Shown: positions 4,136 to 21,191 of the stretch, in pieces | How positions within the stretch are numbered: position 1 is the stretch's first letter | Layout of the letters: every line of letters starts with the position of its first letter | Virus record (IMG/VR): IMGVR_UViG_3300032284_000732 | Coordinates: 1 to 27,674 of that record | Origin: a virus | DNA length: 27,674 nt | Direction: 5' to 3' (one strand) | Notes under the pieces: model-generated | Database searches by the model: none | What the model was told of the DNA's origin: nothing | Seen by the model: the letters and a program-made list of their open reading frames with translations, nothing else | Made by a program: the position numbers and the translations under genes

Positions 4136-5530
4136 ATGACAAAAGATTATACTCCAGATTTACAACGACTATTTTTAGAAATGATGCTACAGGACGCACA
4201 GAGTTATGTACGTGTACAGAACATCTATAATCCAGAAAACTTTGATAGAAGTTTGCGCGATGTGGCAAAATTTATTAAACAACACAGTGATGATCACAAG
4301 ACGCTGCCAACAGTAGAACAGGTAAAAGCAGTTACTGGTGTTGAAATGAAACATGTGCCAGATCTAACTGAAGACCACTACAACTGGTTTATGACAGAGT
4401 TTGAAGGATTTACTAGAAGACAAGAACTTGAACGTGCAATACTTAAATCAGCAGACTTGTTGGAAAAAGGTGAATATGATCCAGTAGAAAAACTTATTAA
4501 AGATGCAGTGCAGATAAGTTTGACTAAAGATATTGGCACTGATTATTTCCTAGACCCACGTAAAAGACTATTAGAAATTAAAAGTAATAATGGACAGGTA
4601 AGTACAGGCTGGCCAACCCTTGATAAACGGTTGTTTGGTGGCATGAATCGTGGTGAGCTAAACATCTTTGCAGGTGGATCTGGCAGTGGTAAAAGTTTGT
4701 TTATGCAGAACATAGCAATTAACTGGGTAACGCAGGGACTCAATGGCATATATCTTAGTTTAGAGTTAAGTGAAGGATTGTGTGCTATGCGTATGGACAG
4801 TATGGTAGCCAATGTCAGCACCAAAGAAGTGTTTAAAGATCTGGATATGGTAGAAATGAAGATTAAGATGGCAGGTAAAAAATCCGGTAGTTTACGTATT
4901 AAATATATGCCAGCACAGAGCAATGTAAACCAAATCCGCAGTTATATTAAAGAACTACAGATACAGACTGGTAAACATCCTGACTTTATTATGGTAGACT
5001 ATTTGGACTTGGTTATGCCTGTAAGTGCCAAGGTAAGCCCAAATGATTTATTTGTTAAGGACAAATATGTAAGTGAAGAACTGCGCAACCTAGCTAAAGA
5101 ATTCAATATATTAATGATAACAGCATCGCAGTTAAACAGAGGTGCGGTAGAAGAAATTGAATTTGACCATAGCCATATCGCAGGTGGGTTAAGTAAGATC
5201 AATACAGCAGATAACGTGTTTGGTATCTTTACTAGCCGTGCTATGCGTGAGCGTGGTAGATATCAACTACAACTTATGAAAACTCGTAGTAGCAGTGGCG
5301 TAGGCATGAAAGTAGACTTAGAGTATGACTTAGAAACATTGCGTATTACAGACCCAGGCGAAGAAGGTCAAGGTGATGGCAATGGGGCTACAAGAAACGT
5401 TAATAACGTGTTAAATAACATCAAATCCAGCAGTACATTAAAGCAAGAGGACACACCTAAAACAGTGGCACATGTAGATAGCAGCAAGTTAAAAAGCATG
5501 CTAGCAGGACTCAAATCTAGTACAGATTAA
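4136..5530 (+). CDS. 41: Replicative DNA helicase, DnaB/T4 gp41-like
   Basis: Ring helicase that unwinds the fork ahead of the phage polymerase and docks the primase encoded just upstream. The N-terminal part is helical. The RecA-like core begins near residue 160: Walker A GGSGSGKS is at 180-187 and Walker B IMVDYLD has its Asp at 288, followed by a TASQLNRGA segment typical of DnaB motif 3 and a TRSS--G loop near the C-terminus of the core. The length of 464 residues is close to T4 gp41. The last ~50 residues are a low-complexity Gly/Asn/Ser/Lys tail. The start ATG is three bases after the primase stop, so the pair is co-transcribed. Confidence 0.93.
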   Translation: MTKDYTPDLQRLFLEMMLQDAQSYVRVQNIYNPENFDRSLRDVAKFIKQHSDDHKTLPTVEQVKAVTGVEMKHVPDLTEDHYNWFMTEFEGFTRRQELERAILKSADLLEKGEYDPVEKLIKDAVQISLTKDIGTDYFLDPRKRLLEIKSNNGQVSTGWPTLDKRLFGGMNRGELNIFAGGSGSGKSLFMQNIAINWVTQGLNGIYLSLELSEGLCAMRMDSMVANVSTKEVFKDLDMVEMKIKMAGKKSGSLRIKYMPAQSNVNQIRSYIKELQIQTGKHPDFIMVDYLDLVMPVSAKVSPNDLFVKDKYVSEELRNLAKEFNILMITASQLNRGAVEEIEFDHSHIAGGLSKINTADNVFGIFTSRAMRERGRYQLQLMKTRSSSGVGMKVDLEYDLETLRITDPGEEGQGDGNGATRNVNNVLNNIKSSSTLKQEDTPKTVAHVDSSKLKSMLAGLKSSTD

Positions 5531-5541
5531 TATCAAACGGC

Positions 5542-5549
5542 AATAAATA
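5542..5549 (+). promoter_or_regulatory. Putative T4-type late promoter
   Basis: AATAAATA, a 6/8 or better match to the T4 late box TATAAATA, lies in the 39-base gap before the gene at 5570 and opens the block of late genes. Confidence 0.5.
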
Positions 5550-5569
5550 TACTAAATTGGAGTAAGATC

Positions 5570-5821
5570 TTGCATAAACGCACACGTAGTATTCTATCAG
5601 AGCTAGACGAGCTCTTAATACACAAAGACAAGGAAAACCTCCTAGAAAGTCGTGCTAATAACATCATTAATGGTGCTATTAATCTTATCCGTTACATCCA
5701 CGAAAGCTATGATGCAGAGACTGCAGGTGAACTAGAACGCAGACTGTTAAACGCTATCAAAGGACAAGACCCACAGAAGTTTACTCGTGGTATCAGGAAA
5801 ATTAAAGATGAAGATCAATGA
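5570..5821 (+). CDS. Small helical phage protein, unknown function
   Basis: 83 residues, highly charged and predicted mostly helical (RTRSILSELDELL, NIINGAINLIRYIHES, AGELERRLLNAIKG). I choose the TTG at 5570 because GGAG lies seven bases upstream (5559-5562) and the gene sits directly behind a late-type promoter. It overlaps the next gene by 14 bases, so translation is probably coupled. The family resembles small conserved proteins of T4-like phages from aquatic hosts, but no function can be assigned. Position after the replication genes, under a late box, suggests a virion or head-assembly role; this is inference only. Confidence 0.65.
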   Translation: MHKRTRSILSELDELLIHKDKENLLESRANNIINGAINLIRYIHESYDAETAGELERRLLNAIKGQDPQKFTRGIRKIKDEDQ

Positions 5822-6332
5822 AATATTAGCAGAATATGACATGCGTACCAAGAGCAAGATGGCAAGTTTTCTTCAGGGTATGGGCGCAAATGATGCTGCA
5901 TCAGCAGTTGATGCATATCATCAAAGTAAATATCAAGGTGGCAAATTGGGCAAAGACCGTAGCCCTAAGCCTAAAAAACCTATAGCTAAACCACAACCTG
6001 TACCAGAACAGCCAGACTATAATAAAGCAATTTTTCAGGATCCAGCCGTATTTAAATCTGCATGGGATCAATATGTTTCTATGCACGGTGGTGCAAATTA
6101 TCGTTTAATATCTGATCCTAGAATGCTAGATGTATTAAAACATATATGGAAACGTATAGGTAACGACACATTGGAAAGTCTAGACATATCAGAAGGTCAA
6201 GAAAACCCATGGGATCCTAGCAAACTATATACAGACTTTGAAAAGTATATGGCAGACGGTGGTAGTATAACACCTCTATGGAAGAATGAATTACGCACTA
6301 TATTAAAAACTGCTGTAAATAGAGTAGATTAA
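5808..6332 (+). CDS. Unknown late protein with a T4 capsid-targeting-like N-terminus
   Basis: 174 residues from the ATG at 5808; AGGA sits nine bases upstream. A longer frame from GTG 5787 exists but lacks a ribosome site. The first residues, MKINEILAE, resemble the capsid-targeting peptide of T4 internal proteins (MKTYQEFIAE), and the L-A-E end fits the L/I-x-E consensus cleaved by the T4 prohead protease. Next comes a basic, Pro/Lys-rich linker (about residues 48-70) and an acidic/aromatic C-terminal domain with DPAVFKSAWDQY and NPWDPSKLYTDFEKY. The function is not known. I infer a packaged internal protein or head-associated protein, with moderate-to-low confidence. Confidence 0.65.
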   Translation: MKINEILAEYDMRTKSKMASFLQGMGANDAASAVDAYHQSKYQGGKLGKDRSPKPKKPIAKPQPVPEQPDYNKAIFQDPAVFKSAWDQYVSMHGGANYRLISDPRMLDVLKHIWKRIGNDTLESLDISEGQENPWDPSKLYTDFEKYMADGGSITPLWKNELRTILKTAVNRVD

Positions 6333-9000: not shown

Positions 9001-9375
9001 GTGCGAATTGATGAACTTATCCATAGTCAATACAATACTCCAGAGACTAATTTAACAACAGCTCTGGAGTTATTGCGCTATAGATATGCAGATAAAGATC
9101 AAACACCAGTAATCAGCACACAAGCTCTTATTAATCTAGTATTAAACACAGACAAAACTTTTAACTATGATGCCCTCAAGGCAGCATATGAAAATAATCC
9201 CAGTGTTAAAAACCTTATTAAAAGTTTCAACAAACAACAGGTAACATTACAACCCTTAGATGCAAGCGACGAAACCAACACCACGGTAGGTGATGCATCA
9301 ACCACAGCGCCAGTAGATACCGTATCTAAAATGGCCAAACGTGCCGCAAAATCACGTGGCAGCGACCTTTTCTAA
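9001..9375 (+). CDS. Small late protein, unknown function
   Basis: 124 residues beginning at GTG 9001, two bases after the preceding stop. The N-terminus MRIDELI again fits the M-(K/R)-x-x-E-(I/L/M) pattern. The first two thirds are helical (ETNLTTALELLRYRYADKD, TQALINLVLNTDKTFNYDAL); the C-terminus is a Thr/Ala-rich linker ending in a basic MAKRAAKSRGSDLF tail. No good Shine-Dalgarno is seen, so it is likely translated by coupling to the gene before. A role in the head is inferred from its neighbour. The basic tail could contact DNA, but this is speculative. Confidence 0.65.
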   Translation: MRIDELIHSQYNTPETNLTTALELLRYRYADKDQTPVISTQALINLVLNTDKTFNYDALKAAYENNPSVKNLIKSFNKQQVTLQPLDASDETNTTVGDASTTAPVDTVSKMAKRAAKSRGSDLF

Positions 9376-9380
9376 AATCC

Positions 9381-9409
9381 TTGACTTTTCAGTGTAAATA
9401 CCATAGTAT
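9381..9409 (+). promoter_or_regulatory. Sigma70-type promoter of the Fe-S cassette
   Basis: TTGACT (9381-9386), a 17-base spacer and TAGTAT (9404-9409, 4/6 match to TATAAT). The start is expected near 9416, leaving a ~40-base leader before iscU. The -10 box lies within an inverted repeat. Confidence 0.72.
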
Positions 9410-9422
9410 ATTAGTATACTAT
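9403..9422 (+). promoter_or_regulatory. Inverted-repeat operator candidate over -10 and +1
   Basis: A perfect 8-bp inverted repeat, ATAGTATA (9403-9410), TTAG spacer, TATACTAT (9415-9422), is centred just upstream of the predicted start, where a bound dimer would block polymerase. Confidence 0.5.
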
Positions 9423-9426
9423 TATC

Positions 9427-9442
9427 GTATGCTATTGCATAC
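9427..9442 (+). other. Hairpin in the iscU leader
   Basis: GTATGC and GCATAC pair across a TATT loop, four bases before the GGAG ribosome site at 9447-9450. It could stabilise the mRNA 5' end or tune initiation; no riboswitch-like structure is apparent. Confidence 0.5.
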
Positions 9443-9456
9443 ATTTGGAGATAAAT

Positions 9457-9846
9457 ATGGCTTATTCAGCGCAGGTGTTAGACCATTACGAAAATCCTCG
9501 TAATGTGGGCAGTCTGGATAAAAACAGTCCAGACGTAGGCACAGGTATGGTAGGCGCACCAGCTTGTGGTGACGTTATGAAATTACAGATTGAAGTACAT
9601 GATGGTATTATAACAGATGCAAAGTTTAAAACTTATGGGTGTGGAAGTGCTATTGCTAGCAGTTCGCTTGTTACGGAAATGCTTAAGGGTCGTACTCTTG
9701 ATGAGGCAACTAGTATCAAAAACTCAGACATCGCAGAAGAACTAGCATTACCACCAGTTAAGATACATTGCAGCGTACTAGCAGAAGACGCTATTAAATC
9801 AGCAATCGCAGACTATAAGAAAAAACATGAAACAATCGCAAATTGA
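9457..9846 (+). CDS. iscU: Iron-sulfur cluster scaffold IscU
   Basis: Scaffold on which [2Fe-2S] clusters are built from sulfur delivered by the cysteine desulfurase IscS, in the cytosol. All key residues are present: Cys37, Asp39, Cys62, His104 and Cys105, in the contexts GAPACGD, TYGCGSA and IHCS. The LPPVK motif recognised by the chaperone HscA is intact at residues 98-102. The length of 129 residues is that of bacterial IscU. I start at ATG 9457, which has GGAG 6 bases upstream, rather than at the TTG at 9445. No iscS, hscA or hscB is in the window, so it would depend on host partners. It overlaps the DUF1289 gene by 20 bases and heads a three-gene cassette. Close similarity to proteobacterial IscU suggests host acquisition. 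Confidence 0.96.
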   Translation: MAYSAQVLDHYENPRNVGSLDKNSPDVGTGMVGAPACGDVMKLQIEVHDGIITDAKFKTYGCGSAIASSSLVTEMLKGRTLDEATSIKNSDIAEELALPPVKIHCSVLAEDAIKSAIADYKKKHETIAN

Positions 9847-10003
9847 AAGTCCATGCATAGGTGTTTGCCAGTTTTGGTTAGGTACCTGTAAAGGCTGTGG
9901 CCGTACACAGGAAGAAGCCTTCGAATGGTATGATATGACTGACAAGCAGAAACAAGCCGTTTTAGATCGTCTTAAGAAAAAGAATAAAAAACTATTAAAA
10001 TAG
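9827..10003 (+). CDS. DUF1289 family four-cysteine microprotein
   Basis: 58 residues, starting at ATG 9827 inside the end of iscU (+1-shifted frame) and ending at TAG 10001-10003, two bases before iscA. The sequence has the DUF1289 hallmark: SPCIGVC near residues 8-14 (Cys10, Cys14), [11 protein letters not shown] (Cys21, Cys24), then [16 protein letters not shown]. The four cysteines in C-x3-C and C-x2-C pairs could bind zinc or an Fe-S cluster. The C-terminus is a Lys-rich helix. DUF1289 proteins are widespread small proteins of proteobacteria with no established function. Its location between and overlapping Fe-S assembly genes argues for a role in that pathway; this is inference from context. 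Confidence 0.9.
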
Positions 10004-10005
10004 AC

Positions 10006-10326
10006 ATGATAACACTAACAGAAAAAGCCAAAGAAAGAGTAAAAATACTGTTAAAGAATAGACATAGAGGTATTGGTCTACGTTTAGGTGTACGTACTTC
10101 TGGCTGTTCAGGTCTGGCTTATGTTTTTGAGTATGCTGACCAAATACGTGAGCATGATATAGAATTTAGTCAGTCTGGCTATAAAATACTGGTAGACAAA
10201 AAAGACATTGTCTACCTAGATGGGGTTGAGATAGACTACGTTAGGCAGGGACTCAATGAAGGGTTTGAGTTTAAAAATCCCAACAGCAAAGGTGAATGTG
10301 GCTGTGGCGAAAGTTTTACAGTATAA
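10006..10326 (+). CDS. iscA: A-type Fe-S carrier, IscA/HesB family
   Basis: 106 residues. Binds iron or an Fe-S cluster and passes it to apoproteins. The three conserved cysteines are present: Cys34 in TSGCSGLAY and Cys98 and Cys100 in the C-terminal ECGCGESF, matching IscA spacing and length almost exactly. SufA or ErpA are alternatives within the same family; IscA is preferred because of the iscU neighbour and the fit in length. The ATG at 10006 follows the DUF1289 stop after two bases, with no clear ribosome site of its own beyond AGAC, so coupling is likely. A-type carriers are known in several aquatic T4-like phages; an adjoining iscU is less usual. Confidence 0.95.
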
Positions 10327-10376: not shown

Positions 10377-11090
10377 ATGCTTATAAACCGTTACAATTAC
10401 ACCGCAATTACACGTGATAGCGTAGAAGGAAAAAGACTGTACAGTTTGCCTGATGGCAGTAGAGTCCCTAGCGTTACTACTATCCTAGACAGGACCAAGA
10501 GCGAAGAGAAAAAAGCCGCATTAGCAAATTGGCGAAAACGAGTAGGTGAAGTCAAAGCCCAGGAAATTACCACAGAGGCCGCAAATCGTGGCACACGTAT
10601 GCACAAGTGGCTAGAGGACTATGTACGCAATGACCGTAACATGGGTGAACCCGGCACAAATCCTTATAGTCAGCAGAGCTATGATATGGCCAAGACTATT
10701 GTAGAAAATGGTTTAAAACATGTAGATGAAGTATGGGGCATTGAGGTACCCTTATATGTAGAAGGACTATATGCAGGCACTACAGATGCATGTGGTTTAT
10801 ACAAGGGTCAACCCAGTATACTGGACTACAAACAGACAAACAAACCCAAGAAAACAGAATGGGTAGATGACTACTTTTTACAATTATGTGCCTATGGCAT
10901 TGCCCATAACGAAACACATGGCACAGATATTAAATCCGGGGTTATTTTAATGTGTGTACAACCCAAGCAACTGCCGGATGGCACATGGGAACAACCACAG
11001 TTTCAGACCTGGCATATACATGGTTCAGAATGGGATTTTTGGTCAGATAAATGGCTTGAAAGAGTAGAACAGTATTACAAACTTAACTAA
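10377..11090 (+). CDS. PD-(D/E)XK exonuclease, MGME1/RecB-like
   Basis: 237 residues with the motifs of single-domain RecB-type nucleases in order: RGTRMHKWLE (residues 71-80), a Glu-containing WGIEVPLY (120-127), AGTTDACG with Asp137, the core LDYKQT with Asp150 and Lys152, and QLCAYG (169-174). The Asp-x-Lys core plus the upstream Asp and Glu make a complete metal site. Relatives in T4-like aquatic phages are annotated as exonucleases resembling mitochondrial genome maintenance exonuclease 1. Only three Cys residues are present, without the Cas4/AddB Fe-S arrangement. Likely role: processing DNA ends during recombination-dependent replication. It has its own early promoter and, apparently, a leaderless start; a late promoter overlaps its stop. 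Confidence 0.85.
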   Translation: MLINRYNYTAITRDSVEGKRLYSLPDGSRVPSVTTILDRTKSEEKKAALANWRKRVGEVKAQEITTEAANRGTRMHKWLEDYVRNDRNMGEPGTNPYSQQSYDMAKTIVENGLKHVDEVWGIEVPLYVEGLYAGTTDACGLYKGQPSILDYKQTNKPKKTEWVDDYFLQLCAYGIAHNETHGTDIKSGVILMCVQPKQLPDGTWEQPQFQTWHIHGSEWDFWSDKWLERVEQYYKLN

Positions 11091-18691: not shown

Positions 18692-19402
18692 ATGTACATA
18701 GATCCAGTTGCAGAATATAACACAATATCCTTCTGGATGTCAGATATAATTGGTAAGAAAATAACACCTAAGAATTTCGTACAGCGTCTAGGCAAGCATT
18801 TAAGTAGAAACCATGCCACAAGAGTAAAACTCTATGTGGGTAAGGATGAGCATCTTGATCGTGGTGATTTTAGTATTGGTGCTGAATATGATCCTGACTT
18901 AGATGAAAAGAAAAAGAAACAGCTGATAATAAATTTTATAGTAAACTATCCTAAACGAGGATTGTGGTTAATAACACCAGAACTTGCAGATAGATTTGTT
19001 ATAGACATGGTAGAAACACTAGTACACGAATATCAACACCAACACCAATATCGCAGTCGCAGATTTAAAATCAATAGAGGCTTTGTAAGCAAGAGTACAG
19101 ACCCTGCCTTAAAAGAAGATCAGGAATATCTAGGACAACCAGATGAGATAGATGCATACAGTGCCAATATTGCAGCAAGATTCTGGATATTAAATCACAA
19201 GCTCAAGGAAAATGCAGATAGTTTAGATCTACTACAGTATTACAAGGTATTTGGTAAAACACATCCGGTAACTAGAAAACTATTAAAAAAGATATTTGTA
19301 AATATACAACTACTTACAGACATTGACAATGGCAAAGCTAAACCCATAAGAAAAGGTAAACCTCGTCCAAAGTCCGCCACTAACCCATGGTATTCTTGGT
19401 AA
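18692..19402 (+). CDS. Putative zinc metallopeptidase-like protein (HEXXH)
   Basis: 236 residues. Residues 106-120 contain an active-site helix with HEYQH (His112, Glu113, His116) preceded by MVETLV, and a downstream LGQPDEIDAYSANIA helix (about 147-161) that could supply a Glu as third metal ligand, as in gluzincin-type enzymes. The N-terminus is mixed alpha/beta and the C-terminus is basic (RKGKPRPKSATNPW). No signal peptide is visible, so it would act in the cytoplasm or in the virion. Substrate unknown: prohead maturation or host-protein cleavage are possibilities. The last 23 bases overlap the end of the convergent methyltransferase gene. A possible TATAAT lies at 18674-18679 but lacks a good -35 box. 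Confidence 0.62.
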   Translation: MYIDPVAEYNTISFWMSDIIGKKITPKNFVQRLGKHLSRNHATRVKLYVGKDEHLDRGDFSIGAEYDPDLDEKKKKQLIINFIVNYPKRGLWLITPELADRFVIDMVETLVHEYQHQHQYRSRRFKINRGFVSKSTDPALKEDQEYLGQPDEIDAYSANIAARFWILNHKLKENADSLDLLQYYKVFGKTHPVTRKLLKKIFVNIQLLTDIDNGKAKPIRKGKPRPKSATNPWYSW

Positions 19403-20531: not shown

Positions 20532-20745
20532 GGGTTATCCATTCCAAACACATGTTACGTGCTGTATTAGCATTCTTTTCTTCCCATAGCTGATGTGTAC
20601 TGTATGATAGATTATAGTTGTTAAAACTCATTTCAACTTCTGGAAAGTAGTTCATAAATGCCTGTCCATATCTATACCACGGATTCTTTAATACTTCCAT
20701 TAAGTAGAACTGTTCAAACTCTTGGAATTGCTGTTGGGTAATCAT
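20524..20745 (-). CDS. Small aromatic-rich protein, unknown function
   Basis: 73 residues, Phe/Tyr/Asn/Gln-rich: QQQFQEFEQFYLMEVLKN, WYRYGQAFMNYFP and STHQLWEEKNANTARNM. The ATG overlaps the peptide deformylase stop (ATGA) and its own end overlaps the methyltransferase start by eight bases, so it is embedded in the coupled operon. No motif is recognised. Since it directly precedes the methyltransferase, an accessory role is possible but unsupported. Confidence 0.6.
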   Translation of the reverse strand: MITQQQFQEFEQFYLMEVLKNPWYRYGQAFMNYFPEVEMSFNNYNLSYSTHQLWEEKNANTARNMCLEWITHD

Positions 20746-21191
20746 CGAACCTGTCTATCATGCATGACAATGCCATCTAAATGATCTAGCTCGTGTTGAA
20801 AACACACACTTATAAGTCCACCATTTAGTTCAAAGTCAATGCATTCGCCTCTATGGTTAAGATAACGTCCACGTATCTGTTTGCTCCTAGGCACAGTGAT
20901 AAGTTCATCAGGAAAACTAAGACATCCTTCCTGGCCTACTATCATTTCCTCACTGTAGTATGTAATCTCTGGGTTAAAGCAATAGTATGTTACATAGTTT
21001 ATTTTCATTACAAACAGTCGTTTGCTGATACCTATCTGTGGTGCTGCAAGTCCTACACCATCATTCTTATCCATAAAATCAACCATCTTTTCAGCTAGAC
21101 TAAGATTTTTATTAGGGTATTCGAAGGACATTGGTGTAGCAACCTTATGCAATACTTTTTTAGTAAACTTAAATTGACTAGGAACTATCAT
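20742..21191 (-). CDS. def: Peptide deformylase
   Basis: Removes the formyl group from the N-terminal Met of nascent proteins. 149 residues with all three motifs: GVGLAAPQIG (45-54), EGCLS (88-92, metal-binding Cys90) and QHELDHLDG (132-140, ligands His133 and His137, catalytic Glu134). It is slightly shorter than bacterial housekeeping enzymes, mainly at the C-terminus, as in other phage deformylases, which lack the C-terminal helix. Phage deformylases are known from aquatic T4-like phages, where they may favour phage or organelle-like proteins. The gene is central in the minus-strand operon, starting one base after the previous stop and ending in an ATGA overlap. Confidence 0.95.
   Translation of the reverse strand: MIVPSQFKFTKKVLHKVATPMSFEYPNKNLSLAEKMVDFMDKNDGVGLAAPQIGISKRLFVMKINYVTYYCFNPEITYYSEEMIVGQEGCLSFPDELITVPRSKQIRGRYLNHRGECIDFELNGGLISVCFQHELDHLDGIVMHDRQVR

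Follow-up and report, generated by a model that had tools for sequence, protein, structure and literature searches.

The stretch analysed here, the whole 27,674 nucleotides (nt) of IMG/VR virus record IMGVR_UViG_3300032284_000732 (positions 1 to 27,674, called the window below), belongs to a T4-like phage and carries an iron-sulfur (Fe-S) operon composed of iscU, a DUF1289 gene and iscA. In sister phages iscU is interrupted after codon 38 by a gap of 3–7 nt that usually begins with a stop codon, and we think it quite probable that T4-like phages carry here another natural programmed ribosome bypass, in which an HNH-like cassette swaps the head of iscU and a hairpin aids the hop between catalytic residues. 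The reading as a whole, a phage Fe-S module whose iscU is the target of a homing cassette, with the window as the empty allele and the sister alleles as short-gap bypass systems similar to T4 gene 60, is in our judgement probable. The sequence evidence for programmed recoding of the interrupted iscU is strong. The cassette anatomy, the exchange of the gene head, the covariation in the hairpin, the purifying selection on both halves and the association with an HNH-like gene are supported by the sequences; we infer the hop itself, the activity and specificity of the endonuclease, its self-protection and the client enzymes.

According to this model, the cassette would take the place of the leader and of codons 1–38 in the occupied sister alleles. 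Its cargo would be an HNH-like endonuclease gene, an iscU head of its own, an mRNA hairpin ending on the Gly38 codon and a short stop-first insert. A ribosome at Gly38 would take off at the stop, jump over 3–7 nt, re-pair on the next Gly codon and resume at Asp39, giving a normal IscU, and the insert would also stop the endonuclease from cutting its own allele.

Interrupted iscU alleles in sister phages

In the window iscU is continuous and reads TGT GGT GAC at codons 37–39 (Cys-Gly-Asp, 9565..9573, plus strand), with no coding gap; between codons 38 and 39 of this empty site, sister phages have a short, usually stop-initial gap and a second Gly codon. In the first comparison, the window proteins were aligned with 422 redundant loci, of which a TGA pattern had matched 118. 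iscU was continuous in 239 loci and broken at codon 38 with a 5-nt gap in 31, with a 4-nt gap in 24 and, with shifted alignment ends, in three more. Breaks away from codon 38 were confined to two intein-bearing copies with an iscU remnant upstream and to a second stop in L238. The other window proteins gave 13 split matches, all within three divergent genes, and those displayed (10) keep the frame. When loci were anchored on the neighbouring exonuclease or on DUF1289 with no demand on a gap, iscU was interrupted in 5 of 50 and 14 of 72 iscU-bearing loci, respectively, and the interrupted loci displayed from these samples have TGA right after Gly38.

All scans pooled, at least 49 distinct interrupted genes stand beside 208 distinct intact ones (132 viral, 76 bacterial); fractions of the 49 refer to the matches listed and count distinct sequences, many of them close relatives and not independent events. 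The scan patterns require GAY-GTN-ATGAA after the gap and the two scans of the stop-agnostic stage require GGN as well, but 43 of the 49 were found without requiring GGN, and the exonuclease- and DUF1289-anchored samples require no gap pattern at all. Two further genes, L494 and L476, escape the pooled pattern and are counted apart from the 49.

The occupied alleles have the layout TGY-GGN-gap-GGN-GAY, i.e. Cys37-Gly38-gap-Gly-Asp39. A stop codon (TGA, TAG or TAA) directly follows Gly38 in 47 of the 49 genes, and the landing codon after the gap is GGN in all 49. The gap measures 4 nt in 25 genes, 5 nt in 12, 6 nt in 11 and 7 nt in one, covering all three frames; in L494 it is 3 nt and in L476 7 nt long. 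The gaps shift the reading frame by 0, +1 or +2, and skipping of the gap would be the only event to yield one and the same protein from every allele. The interrupted alleles were found in many separate metagenomes, which argues against an assembly error. A rule allowing only UGA at the start of the gap was rejected, because scans with TAR and scans without regard to the stop found other starts. An alternative genetic code was also rejected: of the 20 contigs with TAG, TAA or TGTT gaps, 14 had alignable homologs of other genes and these genes contained no in-frame stops (none aligned in the remaining 6). The interrupted iscU of L238 (3274 onwards) has a second in-frame insert, TAA-CTA, in the LPPVK region (LPP*LVKIHC).

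A hairpin ending at codon 38

The 48 nt ending with codon 38 form a 10-bp stem in all 25 distinct interrupted segments, the first base of codon 38 taking part in the final pair. The full set of 10 pairs is formed by 25 of 25 interrupted segments, by 1 of the 123 from intact phage genes and by 0 of the 76 bacterial ones; the hairpin was defined from interrupted sequences, so these counts lean towards them, and randomisation of synonymous codons and covariation shuffles were used as controls for this bias. After randomisation at most 5 of 25 segments had the full stem in 2000 trials. Pair 12-42 of the interrupted segments occurs as CG (12), AU (10) and UA (3), pair 15-39 as UA (13), CG (7), GC (2), UG (2) and GU (1). 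The covariation score amounted to 0.244, which was reached by 0 of 500 shuffles and lies above every slid version, and no covariation was found in the 40 of 123 distinct intact phage segments that entered alignment A4 (score 0.064, reached by 439 of 500 shuffles). Over the 60 nt ending at codon 38, the mean folding z-score was -2.84 for interrupted versus -0.31 for intact genes (30 each). Structure 3' of the gap was also looked for, and no signal was obtained. All 25 interrupted segments have Gln or His as residue 26, versus 2 of 123 intact phage segments; the choice of this IscU residue appears to bend to the needs of the stem. In the window, the covariance model R1 matches 9523-9570, where 5 of 14 pairs fail; three of these belong to the main stem, of whose 10 pairs 7 form. 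L600 keeps the hairpin despite a TGTT gap with no stop next to Gly38; L650 has the same gap, and the HNH-like gene is present in both.

Selection on the two gene halves

Ratios of nonsynonymous to synonymous polymorphism (pN/pS) were computed on a codon alignment. They were 0.19 for the heads (42 distinct) and 0.16 for the tails (40 distinct) of interrupted genes, and the controls gave 0.17 and 0.17 for heads and tails of intact phage genes and 0.14 and 0.13 for bacterial ones. Between cassette heads, 64% of the synonymous sites differ on average, and none of the heads contains a stop; among the interrupted tails, 40 of 41 are without stop. The values point to purifying selection on both halves, as a translated, fused product predicts.

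HNH-like gene and exchange of the iscU head

An HNH-like open reading frame (ORF) of about 200–240 amino acids (aa), with a match ending within 60 nt of the iscU start, is located directly 5' of 39 of the 49 interrupted genes versus 2 of 132 intact viral genes (Fisher, 9e-28). Family A of these proteins has, by eye, zinc-like cysteines and NKG repeats. Comparison of the occupied allele L498 with the empty allele L023 revealed an upstream flank of 83% identity followed by about 600 nt extra, an identity of 74% in codons 1–38, of 94% in codons 39–124 and of 91% downstream; the pair L337/L283 has the same pattern. Twelve empty/occupied pairs had been chosen for similar tails, and the extra 600 nt or so were seen in the 4 pairs with an alignable upstream flank. 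Because of this choice, the lower head identity in 12 of 12 pairs is partly an effect of selection of the pairs; neither the abrupt change of identity at the gap nor the additional 600 nt is a product of it. On a quick tree of the tails (about 258 columns; 41 of the 171 rows interrupted) the interrupted state must have changed at least 26 times; L198 has a very long branch on this tree because its intein enters the tail. Taken by its sequence, the head of iscU seems to have been exchanged between phages together with the cassette. The intact iscU of L018 (5001-5384) has a head with the full cassette-type hairpin (10 of 10 pairs), and the intact gene of L283 forms 9 of 10 pairs; both are likely repaired alleles. 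In L195 (4073-4159), a remnant of iscU residues 1–29 lies 5' of the HNH-like gene and an intein-bearing iscU, as if left by insertion of the cassette.

Intein-like inserts in phage IscU

Two distinct phage IscU (L195 together with L198, and L476) contain, immediately N-terminal to the second active-site cysteine, an intein-like insert that ends with His-Asn-Cys. The coordinates in L195 are 4828-6234, and the Hint match of the L195 protein (22.8) is below the curated cut-off of 29.7. The corresponding codon of the window, Cys62, is at 9640..9642 (plus strand); we take it to be Cys63 in E. coli numbering. Since L476 has both the stop-bearing gap at codon 38 and the intein-like insert, two unrelated intervening elements would reside in the catalytic codons of one gene.

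Alternative explanations for the interrupted alleles

Several findings weigh against a bypass carried by a homing cassette. All interrupted alleles come from metagenomic viral contigs. L600 and L650 read GGT-TGTT-GGA and have no stop directly after Gly38. T4 gene 60 has a matched codon pair, whereas the codons of the iscU alleles are not always matched: take-off and landing codon belong to the same tRNA-Gly class in only 11 of 16 variants and differ in 5. Three stem pairs changed on both sides, a number reached by 67 of 500 shuffles and hence not exceptional. No HNH-like ORF is found directly upstream of 10 of the 49 interrupted genes, and most HNH queries came from interrupted loci, so that other endonucleases beside intact genes could be missed in the comparison given above. 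The endonuclease nature is weak: Pfam HNH matched two family-A proteins below the cut-off (E 0.02–0.08), families A and B both match phrog_5104, which has no function assigned, and the cut-off of NUMOD3, presumably a module of homing endonucleases, is passed by family B only. In a collection of phage records, a single weak partial match to the HNH-like protein was found.

The interrupted genes could be expressed by other means. A frameshift or stop readthrough would add 1–4 residues between Gly38 and Asp39. The 4-nt gaps are often stop-C (TGAC, TAAC), a weak termination context as in prfB, and readthrough is possible for the 3-nt gap of L494 and for the 6-nt gaps, which start with TAG, as none of these changes the frame. 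However, gaps of 3–7 nt would demand +1, +2 (or -1) and in-frame events at one and the same site, the extra residues would be placed between the catalytic Cys37 and Asp39, and the second Gly codon before Asp39, present in 49 of 49, has no role in such a mechanism; readthrough also fits poorly with the lack of in-frame stops in other genes of the 14 of 20 TAG/TAA/TGTT-gap contigs with alignable homologs. We regard recoding of this kind as improbable. The alternative most difficult to dismiss, for some of the alleles, is a split protein, in which translation stops after codon 38 and restarts nearby and the two chains assemble, for which the split NrdA of phage Aeh1 is a model (accessible text of PMC2988022). 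In the TGACA-gap alleles (n = 11) an ATG in the tail frame overlaps the stop, and in another 27 of the 49 the tail frame contains a GTG or TTG at most 33 nt 5' of the landing codon, so that 38 of 49 have some start; the downstream ATG (codon 41) is required by the scan patterns. In the 6-nt-gap alleles (n = 11), by contrast, the 33 nt upstream offer no start codon in the tail frame. A split protein would leave the Gly and Asp codons behind the gap with more freedom to vary, yet GGN is kept in 49 of 49 (43 found without requiring it), and a covarying hairpin ending at codon 38 is unexpected. As a general explanation we therefore give the split protein a low probability. Finally, the interrupted iscU may be dead, a selfish scar in which the cassette protects only itself and conservation reflects recent arrival. 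The high mobility of the interrupted state on the tail tree (26 or more changes, with 41 interrupted among 171 rows) and the second stop further on in the gene of L238 would agree with this, but heads that have diverged at 64% of synonymous sites still have a pN/pS of 0.19 and no stops, 40 of 41 tails are stop-free, and compensatory changes keep the hairpin; a dead gene needs neither hairpin nor purifying selection, and we consider this explanation very improbable.

The isc operon of the window

The original prediction, made from the window alone, described complete iscU, DUF1289 and iscA genes with a 20-base overlap and a two-base gap in a T4-like phage, and coordinates and family models bear this out. 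The operon is on the plus strand. Its promoter and leader (9381..9456) comprise the promoter-like site TTGACT-17-TAGTAT (9381-9409, from a promoter scan), an 8-bp inverted repeat ATAGTATA-TTAG-TATACTAT (9403-9422) upstream of iscU and a ribosome-binding site. The match alone is weak, because the scan of the stretch found 10 sites where 4.7 were expected; the regulated-looking promoter postulated earlier is nevertheless backed by a similar layout 5' of iscU in relatives (pattern found in 57 of 256 upstream regions, a set that also covers bacteria, distant phages and the window itself). iscU (9457..9846; TIGR01999, NifU_N, phrog_8429) is complete and uninterrupted and codes for a scaffold of 129 aa; its coding start is the ATG at 9457 and its stop ends at 9846, the mechanical ORF opening at TTG 9445. 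The protein scores 221.3 bits against NCBIfam TIGR01999 (cut-off 192.4). Hallmarks of IscU are three catalytic cysteines, Asp39, a His and the LPPVK motif, and C37, D39, C62, H104, C105 and LPPVK are all kept in the translation of 9457-9846; as predicted by its family, the IscU of the window would assemble and transfer a 2Fe-2S cluster. The DUF1289 gene (9827..10003; PF06945, 59.2 bits, cut-off 27) overlaps iscU by 20 bases and codes for 58 aa with four cysteines, all invariant in alignments A2 and A5. Two bases further, iscA (10006..10326; TIGR02011, phrog_17776) codes for a complete A-type carrier of 106 aa with three cysteines, which passes TIGR02011 by a small margin (152.4 bits, cut-off 150.6).

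The slot is bordered on the left by a gene with no assigned function (9001..9375; placed by synteny, with a Com_YlbF match at the cut-off only, 24.0 vs 23.9) and on the right by a PD-(D/E)XK exonuclease (10377..11090; phrog_298, synteny), both on the plus strand. DnaB-like helicase, primase, the PD-(D/E)XK exonuclease and class I ribonucleotide reductase make up the T4-like setting of the window. Elsewhere it codes for a 236-aa protein with an HEYQH (HExxH-like) motif and no Pfam match, possibly a metalloprotease (18692-19402), and, on the minus strand, for a peptide deformylase (20742-21191, PF01327).

The AlphaFold model of the DUF1289 protein has a middling pLDDT of 77 and gave no convincing fold match in the PDB (one hit, E 7.4). 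In the accessible text of the literature naming the family no function was found; E. coli ydhL, a DUF1289 member, is listed in a table of an oxidant-resistance screen, as far as that source is accessible. In the Methylotenera contig L717, DUF1289 is flanked by a secA-like and an nth-like gene (both assigned by eye).

Spread of the operon and the isc slot

A scan of viral contigs with IscU confirmed at least 598 relatives, of which the best 80 were kept. The left (o8336 or o9001) and right (exonuclease) neighbours of the window flank iscU in 45 of these 80 loci, and neither neighbour was seen around iscU in 27. An iscA match is present somewhere in 72 of the 80 and a DUF1289 match in 17, always downstream of the iscU start. 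This argues against a chimera: with the same neighbours in 45 of 80 viral loci and a gene order common to independent contigs, chimerism or bacterial contamination of the window was rejected. In the exonuclease-anchored sample iscU was found in 50 of 80 loci, and in the DUF1289-anchored sample iscU was found in 72 of 80 and iscU plus iscA in 63; the three samples overlap and contain near copies.

The isc slot is a cargo site. Besides isc genes it contains radical-SAM genes (4 of 8 scanned candidates pass the Pfam cut-off), a CGFS-type glutaredoxin, second A-type carriers, a flavin adenine dinucleotide (FAD) enzyme and endonuclease-like genes. The CGFS-motif glutaredoxin, a type we take to be an Fe-S carrier, lies just 5' of iscU-iscA (L031:4658-4999). 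L007 (4241-4553) has a tandem pair of DUF1289 genes between iscU and a shortened iscA match. Behind iscA of L003 (3902-4837), an unannotated gene on the minus strand codes for about 300 aa; similar ORFs in L009 and L013 make it recurrent in the slot, and a Pfam search with the protein gave no match. The nearest bacterial IscU include those of Methylophilaceae (80–86% identity) beside other beta- and gammaproteobacteria, which is a lead only. The tree of IscU with host clades that had been suggested left 56 of 102 inner branches open, and a host call at genus level was rejected for this reason.

Partners and client enzymes

Partners were surveyed in 15 iscU-bearing viral contigs of 56–367 kb, which are possibly incomplete. 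The view that the phage has scaffold and carrier without an IscS and co-chaperone of its own fits the result: Aminotran_5 (cysteine desulfurase-like) was above the cut-off in 1 of 15, a SufS-like and not an IscS protein, HscB in 0 of 15 and HSP70 in 6 of 15, the one classified being DnaK and not HscA. Sulfur donor and chaperones may thus come from the host. The IscU of the phage would build clusters with sulfur from the host desulfurase and the IscA would hand them on, the four-cysteine DUF1289 protein being an accessory with no chemistry assigned, and the phage's own radical-SAM enzymes would be the likeliest recipients.

This choice of client is made because radical-SAM domains were above the cut-off in 14 of the 15 large iscU contigs. 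As a control, iscU was not detected in 7 of 10 exonuclease-anchored contigs, and of the three of those larger than 80 kb one has a radical-SAM domain above the cut-off and another has one below it; these controls are few and not independent. Within the slot, radical-SAM genes accompany iscU in 10 of 39 loci vs 2 of 23 without iscU, a difference that is not significant (p 0.18) and speaks against the assignment. The original prediction had instead named host enzymes or the cofactor of the phage NrdB. An operon that supplies iron for the diiron site of NrdB, or repairs host Fe-S proteins, is possible, though unlikely: in L017 (same contig as L185) iscU lies between nrdA and nrdB, outside the usual slot, and in L036, L049 and L056 it is near nrdB-grx, but in the 45 of 80 loci mentioned above it is located between the window's neighbours, where nrdA starts kilobases further, and radical-SAM domains are present in 14 of 15 large iscU contigs, compared with 1 of the 3 large contigs in which iscU went undetected. 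NrdB thus stays a possible client, and radical-SAM enzymes are better ones. In the accessible text of PMC5332604, phage-encoded Fe-S proteins have already been proposed as users of viral isc genes.

Comparison with known systems

The isc operon of the window is intact and, apart from the additional DUF1289 gene, nothing unusual within a known class. Among marine viral genomes, iscU has been described in six and A-type carriers in 14 (PMC5332604), and IscU and A-type carriers occur in T4-like and other marine viruses, some with radical-SAM proteins in the same genome (PMC5332604, PMC9038755; accessible text). Scaffold and carrier, which the original prediction took for a more complete module than a carrier alone, are both present; this is less novel than assumed, viral iscU and A-type carriers having been published. 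In contrast to these descriptions, the window has a tight operon with DUF1289 in the middle and a conserved place, and no gap, cassette or intein is described in the accessible text of these papers. Since phage iscU was known before, the operon alone is a known class with one new detail, the DUF1289 gene between iscU and iscA; it adds to the Fe-S genes on record for phages and suggests radical-SAM enzymes of the phage as its users. Phage C48C1 (OQ984149, Kyanoviridae) has an uninterrupted iscU, annotated as NifU-like and 73% identical, a few genes after a DnaB-like helicase, and the 30 kb examined gave no match to DUF1289 or iscA. A search of the literature by title and start of abstract, with preprints and most subscription papers outside its scope, found among the matches listed none on a bypass, homing cassette or intein in iscU.

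The phage bypass that has been studied most is that of T4 gene 60, and a Streptomyces phage terminase is a candidate. Shorter-distance counterparts have long been presumed to exist (PMC5009743, accessible text). In T4 gene 60 the two Gly codons match, the take-off codon is followed by a stop, a stem-loop forms at the take-off and an endonuclease gene has inserted nearby (PMC5009743, PMC2988022). The interrupted iscU alleles resemble T4 gene 60/MobA in the stop-first coding gap after Gly, the resumption after a second Gly, the stem-loop and the short insert in an active gene, and would also share the adjoining endonuclease gene if the HNH-like ORF is one. They differ in gap length (50 nt in gene 60 vs 3–7 nt), in the target, an Fe-S scaffold with the insert between catalytic residues, in the HNH-like gene, which is 5', in the cassette's own version of the gene head, and in the many variants with three frames and three stop codons. 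Because there is no 50-nt gap and 5 of 16 variants mix tRNA classes, we say that the iscU alleles would work like gene 60 and do not count them as a member. The mitochondrial bypass of Magnusiomyces capitatus shares with them many short skipped inserts and codons that are not always matched; in the accessible text of PMC5009743 its inserts are mitochondrial and independent of mRNA context, unlike the one phage gene, one site and conserved hairpin of iscU. If the reading is true, a homing element would sit between catalytic codons without splicing and these phages would be under strong selection to keep IscU working. The short-gap site occurs in at least 16 natural variants, which vary in stop codon, length and frame and would make a ready set for the rules of hopping.

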